Assembly (NCBI RefSeq): GCF_030369675.1
Contig: NZ_CP128477.1
Coordinates: 3,924,501-3,988,500, forward strand
Direction of reading: 5' to 3'
Source of the DNA: Peteryoungia algae
GTDB lineage: Bacteria > Pseudomonadota > Alphaproteobacteria > Rhizobiales > Rhizobiaceae
DNA: 64,000 nt
Shown here: one piece after another, positions 17,945-34,868 of the stretch
Numbering within the stretch: the stretch's first letter is position 1
How the letters are laid out: every line of letters begins with the position of its first letter
Made by a program: the position numbers and the translations under genes
The notes under the pieces: generated by a model
What the model was told of the DNA's origin: nothing
Database searches by the model: none
Seen by the model: the letters and a program-made list of their open reading frames with translations, nothing else

Positions 17945-18678
17945 TTCGGTTTCTCATCTTCGTCGCTATCATGATGATGGCGCCGGAACTGGCTGTGGCC
18001 CAGCAGTTCCCGACGGATATCTTCAACACCCCGATCGATGGATCGGTGGCGGCGTGGATCATTCGCACATTCGGTCTGCTCACGGTGCTGTCGGTCGCAC
18101 CTGGCATCCTGATCATGGTGACGAGCTTTCCGCGTTTCCTGATCGCGTTCTCGATCCTGCGTTCCGGCATGGGACTCGCGTCCACCCCCTCCAACATGAT
18201 CCTGACCAGTATGGCGCTCTTCATGACCTTCTATGTCATGGCGCCCACCATGGACCGGTCCTGGCGTGACGGCGTCCAGCCGCTTCTCAGCAACCAGATC
18301 ACGGAAGCCCAGGCCGTCGCCCTGATCGCCGAGCCCTTCCGCACATTCATGACAGCAAACACGCGCGACAAGGATCTCGCGCTCTTCGTCGATATCGCCA
18401 ATGAGCGCGGTCAGGCGACGATCGTCGATGGCCAGGTCGATTACCGCGTGCTGATCCCGGCCTTCATGCTGTCGGAAATTCGCCGCGGCTTCGAGATCGG
18501 TTTCCTGATCATCCTGCCCTTCCTGGTGATCGATATGGTGGTCGCCACGATCACCATGGCTATGGGTATGATGATGCTCCCGCCCACATCGATCTCTCTG
18601 CCGTTCAAGATCTTGTTCTTCGTCCTGATCGACGGCTGGAACCTGCTGGTCGGCAGCCTCGTCCGGTCATTTGCTTAA
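17941..18678 (+). CDS. fliP: Flagellar export gate protein FliP
   Basis: 245 residues with a cleavable signal peptide (ELAVAQ) and four membrane helices. FliP forms, with FliQ and FliR, the core of the export gate. Conserved motifs include SFPRFLIAFSILRSGMG near residue 62 and PFLVIDMVVATITMAMGMMMLPP near 200-225. It is the last gene of the flgB operon; the following 237 bases hold a weak GC hairpin (18738-18756) without a clear T-run and then the flaA leader. FliO was not found. Confidence 0.96.
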   Translation: MIRFLIFVAIMMMAPELAVAQQFPTDIFNTPIDGSVAAWIIRTFGLLTVLSVAPGILIMVTSFPRFLIAFSILRSGMGLASTPSNMILTSMALFMTFYVMAPTMDRSWRDGVQPLLSNQITEAQAVALIAEPFRTFMTANTRDKDLALFVDIANERGQATIVDGQVDYRVLIPAFMLSEIRRGFEIGFLIILPFLVIDMVVATITMAMGMMMLPPTSISLPFKILFFVLIDGWNLLVGSLVRSFA

Positions 18679-18854
18679 CGGCCGGGACGTTTCTTCCGCA
18701 CCCATTATCCCCTTCTTTACCATGGGTTTGTTCAACCCCGGAGTCTCCCGCTCCGGTTAAGGTGTTGGCAAGGAATGACTGCGAGTTTGGTTCTCGCACG
18801 ACGGGTCTGGTAGCAACGAAAAATACCAAAAAGGCATGACGCCGAACGTTCGTG

Positions 18855-18908
18855 ACCGGTAAGTTTTTAGTCCGGTATGTCCCCAATTGTATCTCGTTTT
18901 AAGGGACA
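18855..18908 (+). promoter_or_regulatory. flaA leader: two hairpins, the second covering the ribosome site
   Basis: Stem I pairs ACCGG (18855-18859) with CCGGT (18872-18876). Stem II pairs TGTCCC (18878-18883) with GGGACA (18903-18908), which contains the flaA ribosome site AAGGGAC just ahead of the ATG at 18916. The same plan is found before flaB and flaD. I infer translational control, for example by FlbT. Confidence 0.55.
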
Positions 18909-18915
18909 AAATAAC

Positions 18916-19836
18916 ATGGCCAGCATTCTGACCAACTCCAGCGCAATGTCTGCGCTTTCCACCCTGCGCTCCATCGCTTCCAGCATGGAATCCACGCAGA
19001 ATTCCATCTCGACTGGCATGAAGGTTTCCAAGGCTTCTGACAACGCTGCCTACTGGTCGATCTCGACCGGCATGCGTTCGGACAACATGGCACTTGGCGC
19101 CGTTACCGACGCTCTCGGCGTTGGCGCAGCCAAGGTCGACACGGCCTATGCCGGTATGGAATCGGCCATCGACGTGGTCAAGGAAATCAAGGCAAAGGTT
19201 GTCGCCGCCAACGAAGAAGGCGTCGACAAGGGCAAGATCCAGGAAGAAATCACTCAGCTCATCGATCAGCTGAAGTCCATCGGCTCCAGCTCGTCGTTCA
19301 ACGGTGAAAACTGGCTCGTATCCACGGCCAACGCCACGAAAACCGTCGTGTCTGGCTTCGTTCGCGATGCCGATGGCAACGTCAGCGTCAAGAAGACTGA
19401 CTATGATCTTGACGCCACTTCGATGCTGTACACCGAAGCGACGGCGGGAACGATCGATGCCGACTCCGGCATTCTGAACAAGGTCGGTGCCACCGTGACC
19501 GTCGGCGCCACGACTTACACCCAGATCTCTGTTCTCGATCTCGACGTTGAGACCGATGACCTTGGTGACGCCCTCTACTCTGTCGACCTGGCACTCGAAA
19601 GCATGACGAGCGCCGGCGCAAAGCTCGGTTCCTTGTCTTCGCGTATCGACCTCCAGACAGACTTCTCCGCGAAGCTGTCTGACGCCATCGAAAAGGGCGT
19701 TGGTCGTCTGGTGGACGCTGACATGAACGAAGAGTCGACCCGCCTCAAGGCCCTGCAGACCCAGCAGCAGCTGGCAATCCAGGCACTCTCGATCGCCAAC
19801 AGCGACTCGCAGAACATCCTGTCGCTCTTCCGCTAA
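18916..19836 (+). CDS. flaA: Flagellin FlaA
   Basis: 306 residues; the start at 18916 is set by the conserved opening MASILTNSSAMSALSTLRS and the AAGGGAC site in front. Flagellin is secreted and polymerises into the filament. The N-terminal D0/D1 helices (1-140) and the C-terminal helices (LKALQTQQQLAIQALSIANS, ending ILSLFR) are conserved; the middle (about 150-220) is variable and the shortest of the four flagellins here. In Sinorhizobium the first gene is the principal flagellin. It has its own leader and is closed by a terminator at 19966, so it is a single-gene transcript. Confidence 0.95.
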   Translation: MASILTNSSAMSALSTLRSIASSMESTQNSISTGMKVSKASDNAAYWSISTGMRSDNMALGAVTDALGVGAAKVDTAYAGMESAIDVVKEIKAKVVAANEEGVDKGKIQEEITQLIDQLKSIGSSSSFNGENWLVSTANATKTVVSGFVRDADGNVSVKKTDYDLDATSMLYTEATAGTIDADSGILNKVGATVTVGATTYTQISVLDLDVETDDLGDALYSVDLALESMTSAGAKLGSLSSRIDLQTDFSAKLSDAIEKGVGRLVDADMNEESTRLKALQTQQQLAIQALSIANSDSQNILSLFR

Positions 19837-19965
19837 GAGCTGGAACAAGTCGGTCCGCAAGGACCGGCTAGATTATCCCGACGCCAATATGCCTTGGTGG
19901 CTGACCAGAGGTGCGCGAAGGGAAAGCTTCAATATCCGGAGGCTGATCCGGACACGAGGCAAGGC

Positions 19966-20003
19966 AAAGGCCGCATTCGGAAACGAATGCGGCCTTTCCG
20001 TTT
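19966..20003 (+). terminator. Terminator after flaA
   Basis: A perfect 14-pair stem (AAAGGCCGCATTCG at 19966-19979 and its complement at 19984-19997) is closed by a GAAA loop and followed by CCGTTTTGTT. Confidence 0.9.
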
Positions 20004-20184
20004 TGTTAAACAAAATCTGCTACGCGCACGCACGCGCGAAGGTTGCAAATATTTTCAAAAAATGTCCGGTTCCCGATTTCGTTTAGGCCTTCATTAACCT
20101 TGATAGTTTTATCTAGGCCTATCGAAACGGCGAGCTAACTCATAAAATTCAGCCAGTTAGCAGGCATGATGCTGTGCGCCGTTA

Positions 20185-20230
20185 CCGGTTAGACCGGAAT
20201 GTCCCTTCTCAGTCAGCCATTCAAGGGGCA
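20185..20230 (+). promoter_or_regulatory. flaB leader: two hairpins, the second covering the ribosome site
   Basis: Stem I pairs CCGGT (20185-20189) with ACCGG (20193-20197), the reverse of the flaA pairing. Stem II pairs TGTCCC (20200-20205) with GGGGCA (20225-20230), where one pair has become G-U. The ribosome site AAGGGG is inside stem II. Confidence 0.55.
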
Positions 20231-20238
20231 CTACTACT

Positions 20239-21234
20239 ATGACGAGCATTCTTACCAATGTCGCCGCCATGTCGGCACTCCAGACTCTGCGCACGATCGG
20301 CAGCAGCATGGAAGACACCCAGGCCCGCGTATCGTCCGGTCTCCGCGTCGGCGAAGCCTCCGACAACGCTGCCTATTGGTCGATCGCCACCACGATGAAA
20401 TCCGACAACATGGCGCTGTCCGCCGTGTCTGACGCCCTCGGCCTCGGCGCCTCCAAGATCGATACCGCCTATGCCGGTATGGAATCCGCCATCGACGTCG
20501 TAAAGGAAATCAAGGCCAAGCTGGTCACCGCCACCGAAGAAGGCGTCGACAAGGCGAAGGTCCAGGAAGAAATCACGCAGCTGCAGGGTCAGCTGAAGTC
20601 CATCGCCGACTCCGCATCCTTCAGCGGTGAAAACTGGATCGCTGGCGGTACCGACACATCGACCGGTTCTGTCGACGTGACTGTCGTATCCGGTTTCGTC
20701 CGCGACGCCAGCAACAACGTCGCCGTCAAGACCACGTCTTACACGCTCGACGCCACGACGGCCGGCAGCATGACTCTCCTGTTCGGCGGTGACGCGGCCG
20801 GTGCAATCGACACCGCGACCGGTATCCTCGGCGCGACGGGTGCAGACTACACGACCACCGACTTCGACTCGACCGTCGGCGGTGTTGACGCTGCAGCGAC
20901 TGCCGTAGCTGGCATGTCTGTCTACACGCTGGACATCAATGGTTTCGACGGCGCGGCCATGGCTGAAGCCCTGACGCTCGTTGATGCGGCCCTGGCCTTC
21001 ATGACCAGCGCTGGTGCCGACCTCGGCTCGATCTCGATGCGCATCGACCTGCAGGAAGACTTCGTCAACAAGCTGTCGGACTCGCTCGACTCGGGCGTAG
21101 GCCGTCTGGTTGACGCGGACATGAATGAAGAGTCCACCCGCCTCAAGGCACTGCAGACCCAGCAGCAGCTGGCTGTCCAGTCGCTGTCGATCGCCAACTC
21201 TTCTTCGGAAGTCATCCTCTCGCTCTTCCGTTAA
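20239..21234 (+). CDS. flaB: Flagellin FlaB
   Basis: 331 residues, starting MTSILTNVAAMSALQTLR after an AAGGGG ribosome site. It is a paralogue of the flanking flagellins, with conserved helices at both ends and a longer variable centre (about 150-245, rich in Thr, Gly, Asp and Ala). The C-terminus LKALQTQQQLAVQSLSIANSS...ILSLFR is typical. Secondary flagellins of this type are needed with FlaA for a fully functional complex filament in Sinorhizobium. Single-gene unit with its own leader and terminator. Confidence 0.95.
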   Translation: MTSILTNVAAMSALQTLRTIGSSMEDTQARVSSGLRVGEASDNAAYWSIATTMKSDNMALSAVSDALGLGASKIDTAYAGMESAIDVVKEIKAKLVTATEEGVDKAKVQEEITQLQGQLKSIADSASFSGENWIAGGTDTSTGSVDVTVVSGFVRDASNNVAVKTTSYTLDATTAGSMTLLFGGDAAGAIDTATGILGATGADYTTTDFDSTVGGVDAAATAVAGMSVYTLDINGFDGAAMAEALTLVDAALAFMTSAGADLGSISMRIDLQEDFVNKLSDSLDSGVGRLVDADMNEESTRLKALQTQQQLAVQSLSIANSSSEVILSLFR

Positions 21235-21255
21235 GACTGAAGAGATCCAGCATCG

Positions 21256-21280
21256 AAGCCGCCCTCCGGGGCGGCTTTTT
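21256..21280 (+). terminator. Terminator after flaB
   Basis: A nine-pair stem (AAGCCGCCC / GGGCGGCTT) with a TCCG loop runs directly into TTTTT, 21 bases after the flaB stop. Confidence 0.9.
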
Positions 21281-21307
21281 GCGTCTTAACAGATTTTTCA
21301 GATCCGC

Positions 21308-21324
21308 TTAACCATCCGTTAACC
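21308..21324 (+). promoter_or_regulatory. CtrA-type box upstream of flaD
   Basis: TTAACCATCCGTTAACC contains TTAA-N7-TTAA, the recognition pattern of the cell-cycle regulator CtrA in alphaproteobacteria, including the flanking CC of the rhizobial form. It lies about 135 bases ahead of the third flagellin gene. Binding is inferred. Confidence 0.5.
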
Positions 21325-21405
21325 ATACGCCCGTTAGAAGGGATCATGTAACGATGAGTTAACCAAGACGAAGAACTGGTTAAGGGCATTAGGCCGCGTC
21401 ATCGT

Positions 21406-21451
21406 TCCCGGAGAGACCGGGATGTCCCCAAATCTAGCCATTTAAGGGACA
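21406..21451 (+). promoter_or_regulatory. flaD leader: two hairpins, the second covering the ribosome site
   Basis: Stem I pairs TCCCGG (21406-21411) with CCGGGA (21417-21422). Stem II pairs TGTCCC (21423-21428) with GGGACA (21446-21451) and includes the ribosome site AAGGGAC. The GTG start is at 21457. Confidence 0.55.
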
Positions 21452-21456
21452 CGACC

Positions 21457-22455
21457 GTGACCAGCATTTTGACGAACAACGCAGCGATGGCTGCACTCCA
21501 GACCCTCCGTTCCATCGACTCGAAGATGCAGGACACGCAAGCGCGTGTATCCTCCGGTCTGCGTGTCGGCGGAGCCTCCGACAACGCCGCCTACTGGTCG
21601 ATTGCGACCACCATGCGCTCCGACAACATGGCGCTCTCTGCCGTGCAGGACGCACTCGGCCTCGGCGCCGCCAAGATCGATACCGCTTATGCCGCCATGG
21701 AAAGCGCAATCGAAGTTGTCAAGGAAATCAAGGCGAAAGTCGTCGCCGCCACCGAAGAAGGCGTCGACAAGAACAAGATCCAGGAAGAAATCGACCAGCT
21801 GCAGGAACAGCTGCGCTCCATCTCTGAATCGGCAAGCTTCAGCGGTCAGAACTGGGTCGCAACCGGCGCCGATACCGCCACTGCACCCATCGACGTGACC
21901 GTCGTCTCGGGCTTCATCCGCGACTCGAGCGGCAATGTGTCGGTTTCCACGACGCTCTATTCCCTCGATGCAACAACAGCCGACGGCATGACTGTGTTGT
22001 TCGGCGGTGATGTAAACGGCCTGATCGACTACAACTCCGGTATTCTCGGCAGCATCTCCGACACCTTCGACGCCTTCGTCGACTGGGACAATGATGGGGC
22101 CACAGGCGCCGCAGCAGCGGAAATCGCCGGTGTCTCCATCGACCAGCTTGATATCACCGGCCTGACGACTGCCGGTATGCAGGAAGCCCTCTCGCTCGTC
22201 GAGTACGGCCTGCAGCAGATGACCAGTGCTGCAGCGGCTCTTGGTTCGATCTCCATGCGCATCGGCATGCAGGAAGACTTTGTCGCAGCCCTCACCGACT
22301 CGATCGACAGTGGCGTTGGCCGCCTCGTCGACGCAGACATGAACGAGGAATCGACCCGCCTCAAGGCGCTGCAGACCCAGCAGCAGCTGGCCATCCAGTC
22401 GCTCTCGATCGCTAACTCCTCTTCCGAAAGCATTCTGACACTCTTCCGTCAGTAA
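21457..22455 (+). CDS. flaD: Flagellin, third of the tandem set (flaD by position)
   Basis: 332 residues, starting at a GTG with AAGGGAC upstream; the encoded start MTSILTNNAAMAALQTLRS agrees with the paralogues, so the GTG is real. Conserved flagellin ends flank a variable centre of about 100 residues. It is closest to FlaB by eye in the first 150 residues. The name follows the Sinorhizobium order flaA-flaB-flaD-flaC and is not proven by sequence. It has its own CtrA-type box, leader and terminator. Confidence 0.9.
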   Translation: MTSILTNNAAMAALQTLRSIDSKMQDTQARVSSGLRVGGASDNAAYWSIATTMRSDNMALSAVQDALGLGAAKIDTAYAAMESAIEVVKEIKAKVVAATEEGVDKNKIQEEIDQLQEQLRSISESASFSGQNWVATGADTATAPIDVTVVSGFIRDSSGNVSVSTTLYSLDATTADGMTVLFGGDVNGLIDYNSGILGSISDTFDAFVDWDNDGATGAAAAEIAGVSIDQLDITGLTTAGMQEALSLVEYGLQQMTSAAAALGSISMRIGMQEDFVAALTDSIDSGVGRLVDADMNEESTRLKALQTQQQLAIQSLSIANSSSESILTLFRQ

Positions 22456-22516
22456 GCGGCGCTCTGGCTAGGGGCGACTTCGTCCCGCCCTGACAGTGTC
22501 GGATGCCATCGGTGTG

Positions 22517-22550
22517 AATCCGCGCCTCGCAAGAGGCGCGGATTTTCGTT
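22517..22550 (+). terminator. Terminator after the third flagellin gene
   Basis: A perfect 12-pair stem (AATCCGCGCCTC and complement) with a GCAA loop is followed by TTCGTTT. Confidence 0.88.
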
Positions 22551-22644
22551 TGAGCCTTGCGCGAAACTTTTGCGAATTTCGTTTCGACTACAAAAGAGAA
22601 GTCGATACCTTGCCATAACCTCGGTCTCTTTGTTAACTGCCGCT

Positions 22645-22659
22645 GTTAACGATTTGTTA
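22645..22659 (+). promoter_or_regulatory. CtrA-type box upstream of flaC
   Basis: TTAACGATTTGTTAA is a perfect TTAA-N7-TTAA; a third GTTAAC lies just upstream at 22631-22636. It is about 100 bases ahead of the fourth flagellin gene. Confidence 0.5.
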
Positions 22660-22760
22660 ACAGTGACGGGGATCGCGCAAAGGCGCGTTCTGCATGATGC
22701 CCTCCCGTTTTCCCGGCAAACCGCCGGATGCGCAGTCCTGAACGCTTAGGGGCACCAAGC

Positions 22761-23720
22761 ATGACCAGTATTATGACCAATGCGGCCGCCATGGCGGCGC
22801 TGCAGACGCTTCGTTCGATCGACAACAACCTCGAGACGACCCAGCGACGCGTTTCCTCGGGTTACCGGGTCGAAACGGCAGCCGACAATGCCGGCTATTG
22901 GTCCATTGCCACCACGATGCGCTCCGACAATGCGGCGCTCTCGACCGTTTCCGACGCGCTCGGCCTCGGTGCGGCAACCGTCGATACCGCCTATACGGCG
23001 CTCGACAATGTCGTTGACGTGATGTCCACGATCAAGGCGAAGCTGGTTGCGGCCAGCGAACCGGGCGTCGACAAGAACAAGATCAACGAGGAAATGACGC
23101 AGCTGAAAAATCAGCTGATCTCGGCCGCGCAGTCCGCCTCCTTCTCCGGCGAGAACTGGCTTTACAACACCAATGCTGCGCCCCTTGGCACAAAGCAGGT
23201 TGTCTCGTCCTTCGTCCGTGGCGCAGATGGCAGCGTGCAGGTCACGACGCTGGACTTCGATACGGCCGAATCCGTCCTGATCGACATTCAGGACCCGTCG
23301 CAGGGCTTCCTCACCAAGGCGATCGATGCCGACGTCCTGCGCAACACCGGGACCGGCGTCCGCGATTACTACCTCCTCGACATGGGCGCAGCCCCTGCCG
23401 GCACTGAAATCGCGATCGACACCAATACCGACACCGAAACGCTCGCCGACATGATTTCTGTCGTTGATAACGTCATCCAGCAGCTGACTGATGCCGCCGC
23501 TACCCTCGGCGCGATCACCAGCCGCATTGAGATGCAGGACAACTTCGTCTCGAACCTCATGGACGTGATCGACAAGGGCATCGGTCGTCTTGTTGATGCC
23601 GACATGAACGAGGAATCGACACGCCTGAAGGCGCTGCAGACCCAGCAGCAGCTCGGCATCCAGGCTCTTTCGATCGCCAACAGCAGCGCCGAAAAGCTCC
23701 TGACGCTCTTCCAGCGGTAA
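22761..23720 (+). CDS. flaC: Flagellin, fourth of the tandem set (flaC by position)
   Basis: 319 residues from the ATG at 22761 (MTSIMTNAAAMAALQTLRS). It is the most divergent of the four: the N-terminal helix region differs at many sites (ETAADNAGYWS, TVSDALGLGAATVDTAYTALDNVVDV) and the centre is unlike the others. The C-terminus LKALQTQQQLGIQALSIANSSAEKLLTLFQR is intact. Its leader keeps the CCGG-type hairpin (22713-22727) but lacks the perfect TGTCCC/GGGACA pairing, so its translation may be set differently. Name by position only. Confidence 0.9.
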   Translation: MTSIMTNAAAMAALQTLRSIDNNLETTQRRVSSGYRVETAADNAGYWSIATTMRSDNAALSTVSDALGLGAATVDTAYTALDNVVDVMSTIKAKLVAASEPGVDKNKINEEMTQLKNQLISAAQSASFSGENWLYNTNAAPLGTKQVVSSFVRGADGSVQVTTLDFDTAESVLIDIQDPSQGFLTKAIDADVLRNTGTGVRDYYLLDMGAAPAGTEIAIDTNTDTETLADMISVVDNVIQQLTDAAATLGAITSRIEMQDNFVSNLMDVIDKGIGRLVDADMNEESTRLKALQTQQQLGIQALSIANSSAEKLLTLFQR

Positions 23721-34074: not shown

Positions 34075-34422
34075 ATGTACCAGTTCTCATATGCCGAAAT
34101 TATGGAAGATGGCGTCGCCGACGCCAAGGAGCGTGAACGGCAGGCCCTTGACCGTTGCATCCAGCTTCTGAGCGCCGCACGGGAGAAGAAGGGTTATTCC
34201 CGCGAGGCGATCGAGGCTCTGTTCTATACTCGCCGGGTCTGGGTCCGGCTGATCGAAGATCTGCAAAACCCCGAAAACCAGTTGGGCGAGGAAGTCCGCG
34301 CCAACCTGATTTCCATCGCCATCTGGATTTTGAAAGAGTGTGACCGGATCCGCAAGCGCGAGTCGGAAAACTTCCAGGGCATCATCGACGTGACAACCAT
34401 CATCAGGGATGGACTTAAATGA
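34075..34422 (+). CDS. flaF: Flagellin synthesis regulator FlaF
   Basis: 115 residues, a small helical cytoplasmic protein. FlaF and FlbT are an alphaproteobacterial pair: FlaF promotes flagellin translation or secretion and FlbT holds it back, as shown in Caulobacter and Brucella. Family marks are the N-terminal [24 protein letters not shown] and the middle [17 protein letters not shown]. Its stop overlaps the flbT start (ATGA). Confidence 0.93.
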
Positions 34423-34868
34423 AGAGCACTTTGCGCATCTCGCTCAAGTCGGGCGAACGTATTTTTATCAACGGAGCGGTTCTGCGCGTCGACCGCAAGG
34501 TTGCCCTCGAGTTCCTGAACGATGTGACCTTCCTGCTCGAGAACCACGTTCTGCAGCCGGAACAGGCGACCACGCCCCTGCGTCAGCTCTACTTCATCGC
34601 CCAGATGATGCTGATCAATCCGGAAGGCAAGGACCAGTCGCTCGCGATGTTCCGCAAGTCGGTGATCATGCTGCTGTCGTGCTTCGAGAACGAAGAAATT
34701 CTCGCTGAACTGAAGCGCATCGACGGCATGGTGTCGTCAGGCCGAGCTTTCGACGCGCTGAAAGCGATCCGCCAACTCTATCCGATTGAAGACCGTATCC
34801 TGAACAATCAGGAAATGGCGCCGGCAACGATCGAGCAGATCCGCAAGGAGATCGCACCATGGCGGTAG
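34419..34868 (+). CDS. flbT: Flagellin mRNA regulator FlbT
   Basis: 149 residues. FlbT binds the 5' leader of flagellin mRNA in Caulobacter and lowers its translation or stability until the hook is complete. The family start [23 protein letters not shown] and the middle [12 protein letters not shown] [14 protein letters not shown] are present. It overlaps flaF by four bases and flgD by ten. The paired hairpins before flaA, flaB and flaD are candidate targets. Confidence 0.94.

Follow-up and report, generated by a model that had tools for sequence, protein, structure and literature searches.

A structured RNA element in the flagellin leaders of Peteryoungia algae and related bacteria, with FlbT as a candidate partner

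Do the flagellin messages of the alphaproteobacterium Peteryoungia algae carry an RNA structure in their leaders through which translation could be controlled, and if so, which factor would read it? The question is raised by a stretch of 64,000 nucleotides (contig NZ_CP128477.1, positions 3,924,501 to 3,988,500 of the forward strand; hereafter the window), which is part of a genome consisting of a single contig of 4.40 Mb. The original prediction held that the flagellin leaders in this window share a two-hairpin structure with paired-base changes that hides the ribosome site and may be the rhizobial target of the protein FlbT. The observation is confirmed, and it was understated: the two hairpins, stems I and II, are the downstream part of a larger element, and the leader structure, with its two domains and its cover over the ribosome site, is well supported by sequence and comparative evidence. 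The interpretation is partly supported. The genes concerned are listed below, with names assigned by likeness.

18916-19836, + strand: flaA flagellin gene, element in its leader (also a Pfam match)
20239-21234, + strand: flaB flagellin gene, element in its leader
21457-22455, + strand: flaD flagellin gene, element in its leader
22761-23720, + strand: fourth flagellin gene (flaC-type), element in its leader

Architecture of the leader element

The element begins with an upstream domain that forms a three-way junction, in which stem A encloses the hairpin P0 and a short AUGAN hairpin with the core GC-AUGAN-GC. Stem I follows, and directly after it comes stem II, with the ribosome site as its 3' arm. 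Most of the 169 flagellin starts that we collected from 75 sources (the window plus named loci that were retrieved for their likeness to flagellins) share a common layout: GCATGANGC, about 21 nucleotides (nt), CCGG, a loop, CCGG, ATGTCCC and GGGRCA. Here GCATGANGC is the small hairpin GGC-AUGAN-GCY itself, and its outer pair changes on both sides. P0 adjoins it on the upstream side, with arms that vary between genes yet remain complementary, for example GTTAACC/GGTTAAC, TTTGGTTCC/GGACCGAG (with G-U pairs), CTGTCGCC/GGCGACAG and CCGGTCA/TGACCGG. Stem A, which was found from a scan of column pairs, has the arms AACGGCG/CGCCGTT in flaB, AACGATG/CATCGTT in flaD and ACGGG/CCCGT in the fourth gene. 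Among 241 elements (assembled as described below), the loop reads ATGAN in 220, a six-base ATGANN in 8, ATCAN in 8 and ATTAN in 5, counts that are partly definitional because the anchor pattern itself requires GCAT-N-A. The spacing from GCATGANGC to CCGG is 21-22 nt in 224 of 236 elements. The helices in the window are as follows.

18797-18803 with 18847-18854, + strand: flaA stem A, with one bulged base
18808-18812 with 18824-18828, + strand: flaA P0
18833-18843, + strand: flaA AUGAN hairpin, GGC-AUGAC-GCC
18855-18859 with 18872-18876, + strand: flaA stem I, ACCGG/CCGGT
18878-18883 with 18903-18908, + strand: flaA stem II, TGTCCC/GGGACA, enclosing 19 nt
20126-20132 with 20177-20183, + strand: flaB stem A
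20134-20140 with 20155-20161, + strand: flaB P0
20163-20173, + strand: flaB AUGAN hairpin
20185-20189 with 20193-20197, + strand: flaB stem I, CCGGT/ACCGG
20200-20205 with 20225-20230, + strand: flaB stem II, TGTCCC/GGGGCA, enclosing 19 nt
about 21350-21356 with 21400-21406, + strand: flaD stem A
21359-21365 with 21377-21383, + strand: flaD P0
21385-21395, + strand: flaD small hairpin, GGC-AUUAG-GCC
21406-21411 with 21417-21422, + strand: flaD stem I, TCCCGG/CCGGGA
21423-21428 with 21446-21451, + strand: flaD stem II, TGTCCC/GGGACA, enclosing 17 nt
22666-22670 with 22704-22708, + strand: fourth-gene stem A
22674-22678 with 22683-22687, + strand: fourth-gene P0
22692-22700, + strand: fourth-gene small hairpin, GC-AUGAU-GC
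22713-22717 with 22723-22727, + strand: fourth-gene stem I, CCGGC/GCCGG

All the arms of stems I and II that had been predicted for flaA, flaB and flaD are thus found at or near their expected places, with stem II enclosing 17-19 bases, and the fourth gene keeps stem I without a perfect stem II, as had been proposed. The description as a two-hairpin structure does not hold, since stem I is preceded by two more helices and a small hairpin. Folded alone, the flaA leader forms stem A, P0 and the AUGAN hairpin (18797-18854) in its minimum-energy structure, together with stems I and II, and all five helices likewise appear in the minimum-energy fold of the flaD leader alone. When the leader of the fourth gene is folded from -125, stem A, P0, the small hairpin and stem I appear, while a shorter stretch folds otherwise. 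Depending on the stretch folded, the predicted unpaired probability of the ribosome site is 0.00-0.05 in flaA, flaB and flaD, and 0.05-0.18 in the fourth gene. A covariance model built from 33 leaders (R1) matches flaB (20099-20241, 115.3 bits) and flaD (21324-21459, 83.8 bits), which belong to its seed, and flaA (18772-18918, 52.6 bits), which lies outside the seed; its match to the fourth gene is weak (21.4 bits, E 0.003).

Two other roles for parts of the element were considered and rejected. The ATG that follows stem I could open an upstream reading frame, but its distance to the flagellin start spans all three frames (90, 72 and 48 of 210), and its TG begins the 5' arm of stem II. Stem II as a transcription terminator does not fit either, since no T run follows it in the window leaders and it sits over the ribosome site.

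TTAA-rich palindromes (GTTAAC repeats) at 22625-22674, which precede the fourth element and run into its start, are possible CtrA or operator sites. A sub-gathering match to the Rfam family MIR2629, on both strands, is a TTAA palindrome and overlaps the flaC-type element at its 5' end.

Covariation and behaviour as RNA

In order to compare the helices across genes, we used an alignment made from sequence only (A2), whose 33 leaders were picked by leader type from 56 non-redundant ones. On A2, stem A is paired in 89% of cells and P0 in about 93%, each with two-sided changes in six of seven pairs. The whole-structure covariation score is 0.279, compared with 0.186 for shuffled and at most 0.126 for slid versions, and RNAalifold, unprompted, returns stem A, P0, the small hairpin and stem II. 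The strong paired-base changes therefore fall in helices that the original prediction did not mention. Together with the low unpaired probability of the ribosome site, this comparative evidence upholds its view of the leaders as a selected RNA structure over that site.

Two further tests address the relatedness of the leaders and the choice of alignment. The first is a home-made, R-scape-like, tree-aware test in which substitutions are re-dropped on the tree. With 241 order-wide leaders and 11,935 column pairs, the five best-ranked pairs belong to stem A or P0 (one being a next-column neighbour), and the best pair, the sole one below 0.05, reaches E 0.017. The second is an alignment-free swap test, in which the own arms of an element are set against arms exchanged between elements. 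It was run on 96 divergent elements (101 of the 241 are left at 70% identity, 96 of them with two CCGG). Own arms beat the swapped mean in 66 of 96 elements for stem A (p 1e-7), 71 for P0 (1.6e-10), 78 for stem II (3e-6) and 59 for stem I (6e-4), against 46 for a control region (0.69); all p-values are nominal because the sequences are related. Covariation is also high in alignments of model matches: 93.2% of cells are paired in 111 distinct order-wide matches, with two-sided changes in 23 of 25 pairs and a score of 0.535 versus 0.169, and 91.9% in 147 mostly Rhizobiaceae matches, with two-sided changes in 17 of 25 pairs. It should be noted that both alignments lean towards the model because they were fitted to it.

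The sense of the mismatches bears on whether the repeats are kept as RNA. In an inverted repeat kept as DNA, G-T and A-C mismatches should be equally common on one strand, whereas G-U should dominate in an RNA helix. On A2 the ratio of G-U to A-C is 21:4 for stem A, 18:1 for P0 and 36:3 for stem II, and thus these three helices behave like sense-strand RNA. Ahead of stem A, many flaB- and flaD-type leaders carry a TTAACCAT box and a TTTTCT-like hexamer, an arrangement that would place the start of transcription just before stem A; the parts available to us of the literature on transcription starts gave no flagellin start position.

On A2, stem I is paired in 78% of cells, and it is not among the helices that RNAalifold returns on these 33 sequence-aligned leaders. 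Its two arms had been said to change together; this is true of one of five pairs, and the variants in flaA, flaB and flaD differ mostly in flanks or register. The co-change is weaker than claimed because the CCGG core, which makes up most of the stem I cells, is self-complementary and nearly invariant. Its outer pair varies in concert across the order (AU 35, GC 19, GU 10, UA 10, CG 5, UG 1, unpaired 29), and is unpaired in 89 of the 147 mostly Rhizobiaceae matches.

Downstream genes and distribution

R1 gives 241 matches at E ≤1 in 78 sources, of which the best 150 went into an alignment (A4); a further alignment (A5) was built from a subset of the matches in 100 sources. Together, A4 and A5 cover 261 places. 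Dropping 6 without the anchor motif and 10 duplicates leaves 245 anchored elements, 241 of them with enough flank. They precede 238 flagellin genes (233 by a pattern test and five on inspection), five chemoreceptor genes and one unidentified gene, and one match is on the wrong strand. Gene context at the named loci, which supplied most of the 245, is no evidence because these loci were fetched by flagellin likeness. The 111 distinct order-wide matches precede 104 flagellins, five chemoreceptors and two genes that are neither.

In the P. algae genome, the five highest-scoring matches of R1 fall on the four flagellin leaders and one chemoreceptor leader. This fifth copy (L101, G000:C1:3916437-3916580) is located outside the window, 27 kb upstream of flaA, before a gene for a globin-coupled chemoreceptor. 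Two other genomes of the family carry the element before chemoreceptor genes at a similar distance (L137 and L138). In one genus of another family of the order, it lies directly before a chemoreceptor gene (L143 in genome G090 and L246 in G124) and has a GGGGC arm that resembles a ribosome site. L137, L138 and L143 were fetched because they are located away from flagellins. L101 and L137 encode Protoglobin and MCPsignal domains and L143 encodes HAMP and MCPsignal, while the chemoreceptors of L138 and L246 were identified by similarity of sequence. The leaders of L101, L137 and L138 retain stem A, P0, the AUGAN hairpin and stem I, have no stem II over the ribosome site, and have their start codon further down. 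The upstream part is thus separable from stem II, the latch.

At E 0.001, R1 matches 85 of 121 genomes of the family Rhizobiaceae, a covariance model over whose flagellin leaders had been proposed as a check, and at E 0.01 it matches 34 of 199 genomes of the order Hyphomicrobiales; P. algae is counted in both. A class-wide search of 239 other genomes gives six weak matches (E ≤0.1) with no flagellin recognized downstream, although one of these (L149) is at a contig edge and its downstream reading is incomplete. R1 has no match in 29 flagellin loci from outside the order. An order-wide covariance model (R2) gives three weak matches in these 29 loci; two of them, in L165 (16.6 bits) and L179 (10.5 bits), end where a flagellin gene starts and are too weak to count. 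In 336 other genomes, it gives six matches at E ≤1e-5, with no flagellin recognized downstream. Two matches of 16-17 bits in the P. algae genome receive E-values of about 1e-3 from R2, which are too optimistic, and its tally of 65 of 199 genomes is therefore not used.

Searches with Rfam 15 return no family that matches the leaders of the window above chance: none at the gathering threshold, and none of relevance at E ≤10 over 18600-22900, where the sub-gathering matches are mostly coding or terminator stretches. No known riboswitch or RNA thermometer model matches the leaders, and no thermometer model matches the region at E ≤10. Seven order-wide loci searched at E ≤0.1 give two unrelated families (three rows), all away from the element. 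We also found no description of a structured flagellin leader in this order among the titles and abstract openings listed from the open-licence literature. Judged by sequence, the leaders of the four flagellin genes appear to belong to one cis-acting RNA family of the Hyphomicrobiales that lacks a counterpart in Rfam 15.

Two leaders carry parts reminiscent of the element. A flagellin gene outside the main cluster of P. algae (L006, G000:C1:88398-88802, minus strand) is preceded only by the hairpin GACGC-ATGAT-GCGTC, as if the AUGAN hairpin alone had been retained, and it has no R2 match. Outside the order, the flagellin leader of L165, whose R2 match ends at the start codon, contains CAATATGGC-ATGAA-GCCGTATTG and is possibly a distant relative.

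FlbT and other explanations

The candidate partner and a possible accessory protein are encoded in the same flagellar cluster, as the original prediction had noted for flbT.

34075-34422, + strand: flaF (Pfam PF07309, E 3.4e-34)
34419-34868, + strand: flbT, candidate RNA-binding partner (Pfam PF07378, FlbT, E 8.1e-43)

According to reviews and papers, FlbT of Caulobacter binds the 5' untranslated region (UTR) of flagellin mRNA and represses translation or promotes decay (Anderson and Gober 2000), with FljJ as a co-repressor that is relieved by secretion (Ardissone et al. 2020). FlaF is named in the literature as the flagellin secretion chaperone of Caulobacter. FlbT is reported to activate flagellin production in Brucella and to induce translation of LafA in Bradyrhizobium.

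With moderate confidence, we regard the element as a translational gate on late motility genes that is probably the target of FlbT. Stem II, as its folding suggests, would by default keep ribosomes off the message. A conserved recognition domain beside the latch suggests a trans-acting factor, for which the junction and the AUGAN hairpin would be the recognition site. FlbT, with FlaF or flagellin as its partner, is the best candidate for this factor, which would determine whether stem II is kept closed or the message goes on to translation or decay. Since chemoreceptor genes are preceded by the element as well, the gate would tie the synthesis of filament and chemotaxis proteins to the completion of the hook-basal body. 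The link to FlbT is plausible: it fits the published work, and FlbT is encoded in 78 of 80 element-bearing genomes, a chosen subset, the two misses being assemblies that are 76% and 86% complete. As flagellar clusters are inherited as blocks, such co-occurrence is consistent with an FlbT-RNA pair and does not prove one. The proposed rhizobial FlbT target agrees with genome content and literature, with binding itself presumed.

A wider reading, which we hold more tentatively and put slightly below an even chance, is that this order-wide RNA family defines a post-transcriptional late-motility regulon read by FlbT or an FlbT-flagellin complex, such that filament and chemotaxis proteins would be made only once the hook-basal body is complete. 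The recognition domain would then be joined to the latch in flagellins, whereas some chemoreceptor messages would have another region downstream of it.

Several results weigh against the gate or its link to FlbT. Stem II, which is 94% paired on A2, is mostly invariant; it has two-sided changes in none of its six pairs there and few in the 111 order-wide matches. That cover is not universal, as the fourth flagellin leader and those of L101, L137 and L138 have no normal stem II. Stem I fails the mismatch test, with fewer G-U than A-C on A2 (2:12) and in two further counts (18:43 and 11:14). On 167 leaders (those of the 169 with enough upstream sequence), the tree-aware test gives no pair below E 0.05, a P0 pair ranking first at E 0.11. 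Folding energies of the four single leaders are not significantly below those of shuffles (z 1.04, 0.01, -1.59 and 0.41), and therefore stability argues neither for nor against the structure. The CtrA-like box of flaC-type leaders lies right against stem A and fits a simple -35 position poorly. R1 has no match at E 0.001 in 36 of the 121 family genomes, counted irrespective of flagellation. Finally, the co-occurrence with FlbT is weak evidence because FlbT is also found outside the order (in the Caulobacter control), where the sampled flagellin loci have no R1 match.

The strongest competing explanation, which we consider rather unlikely, is that the RNA is real and something other than FlbT binds the junction. 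This could be a different RNA-binding protein, a small RNA, or a metabolite, for instance a nucleotide second messenger, in which case the element would be a new riboswitch-like class. A three-way junction with a strongly conserved small hairpin suits recognition of any kind, and FlbT is more widely spread than the element. Six genomes have two FlbT genes, one at 12-21 kb from the flagellin gene that bears the element and the second far from it. Against such a partner, no Rfam family, riboswitches included, matches the leaders, and the set of flagellins and chemoreceptors resembles the class III set ascribed to FlbT control in Caulobacter, which one paper describes as flagellins and Che proteins.

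It is improbable that the conserved blocks are DNA sites, namely a promoter element (GCATGANGC), CtrA half-sites (GTTAACC/GGTTAAC) and CCGG repeats. CtrA binding at flaA has been reported in Sinorhizobium meliloti, the P0 arms of flaB- and flaD-type leaders resemble CtrA half-sites, and TTAA-N7-TTAA boxes occur in 72 of 166 upstream regions compared with 31 of 1540 random stretches, some of the 72 being the arms of P0 itself. The near-fixed spacing from GCATGANGC to CCGG and the A-C excess in stem I also point this way. However, a test of P0 as a CtrA site failed, as conserved TTAA half-sites are absent from many leaders, e.g. those with CTGTCGCC/GGCGACAG or CCGGTCA/TGACCGG; the arms of P0 and stem A shift in concert to TTAA-free forms, and a DNA palindrome would not favour G-U over A-C as stem A, P0 and stem II do. 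GCATGANGC as a promoter was rejected since it folds into a hairpin with two-sided changes in its outer pair, the third base of its loop varies (G, C or T), and it is flanked by paired arms.

An RNA thermometer or a simple mRNA-stability hairpin without a specific partner, in which stem II melts with temperature or the 5' structure blocks RNases, is the least probable explanation: stem II is short, lies over the ribosome site and in most of the 33 seed leaders includes a U-G pair, but the upstream junction, its conserved AUGAN hairpin and the junction-bearing leaders without stem II would go unexplained, and the thermometer families of Rfam do not match the region.

The proposed FlbT-controlled gate is best compared with the leader in Caulobacter. 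In both cases a flagellin 5' UTR is concerned, which here holds the element over the ribosome site (the element is presumably transcribed), the genes belong to a late class, extended to Che proteins there by one paper, and flbT and flaF share one flagellar cluster here. The flagellins of Caulobacter differ in being RpoN-dependent, and the element in P. algae is a defined multi-helix RNA family, while the Caulobacter leader is compared by description only. The activator role reported for FlbT in Brucella and Bradyrhizobium also departs from repression in Caulobacter. According to a review, it is unclear how FlbT acts and why it promotes decay in Caulobacter yet activates in Brucella. A defined covarying RNA with a small conserved hairpin makes this question directly testable and provides a search model for the regulon. 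It also suggests that some chemoreceptors may share one gate with flagellins. Flagellin messages are likewise controlled post-transcriptionally by CsrA-FliW in Campylobacter. CsrA binds GGA motifs, whereas the conserved loop of the element is AUGAN.

The order has one other candidate RNA structure ahead of a flagellar gene to compare, RF01736, flg-Rhizobiales (Weinberg et al. 2010), which differs in sequence and hairpins. Its covariance model gives no match in the P. algae genome at E 0.001, and none in the window either at the gathering threshold or at E ≤10 over 18600-22900. In 9 of 12 loci checked (L009-L020), RF01736 precedes a rod gene that we take, by recognition, to be flgF-like, with repeated GGGAG stretches. 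Identity of the two elements was rejected on these grounds, a different gene (flagellins in 238 of 245 cases against the flgF-like gene) and no model match. At E 0.001, 18 of 150 genomes in this order contain an RF01736 match, three of them above the family cut-off, and the motif may be a second post-transcriptional motif of flagellar genes. In one genome (G035), 3.75 Mb separate the two elements, and each has an FlbT gene of its own nearby, at a distance of 21 kb in the case of RF01736.

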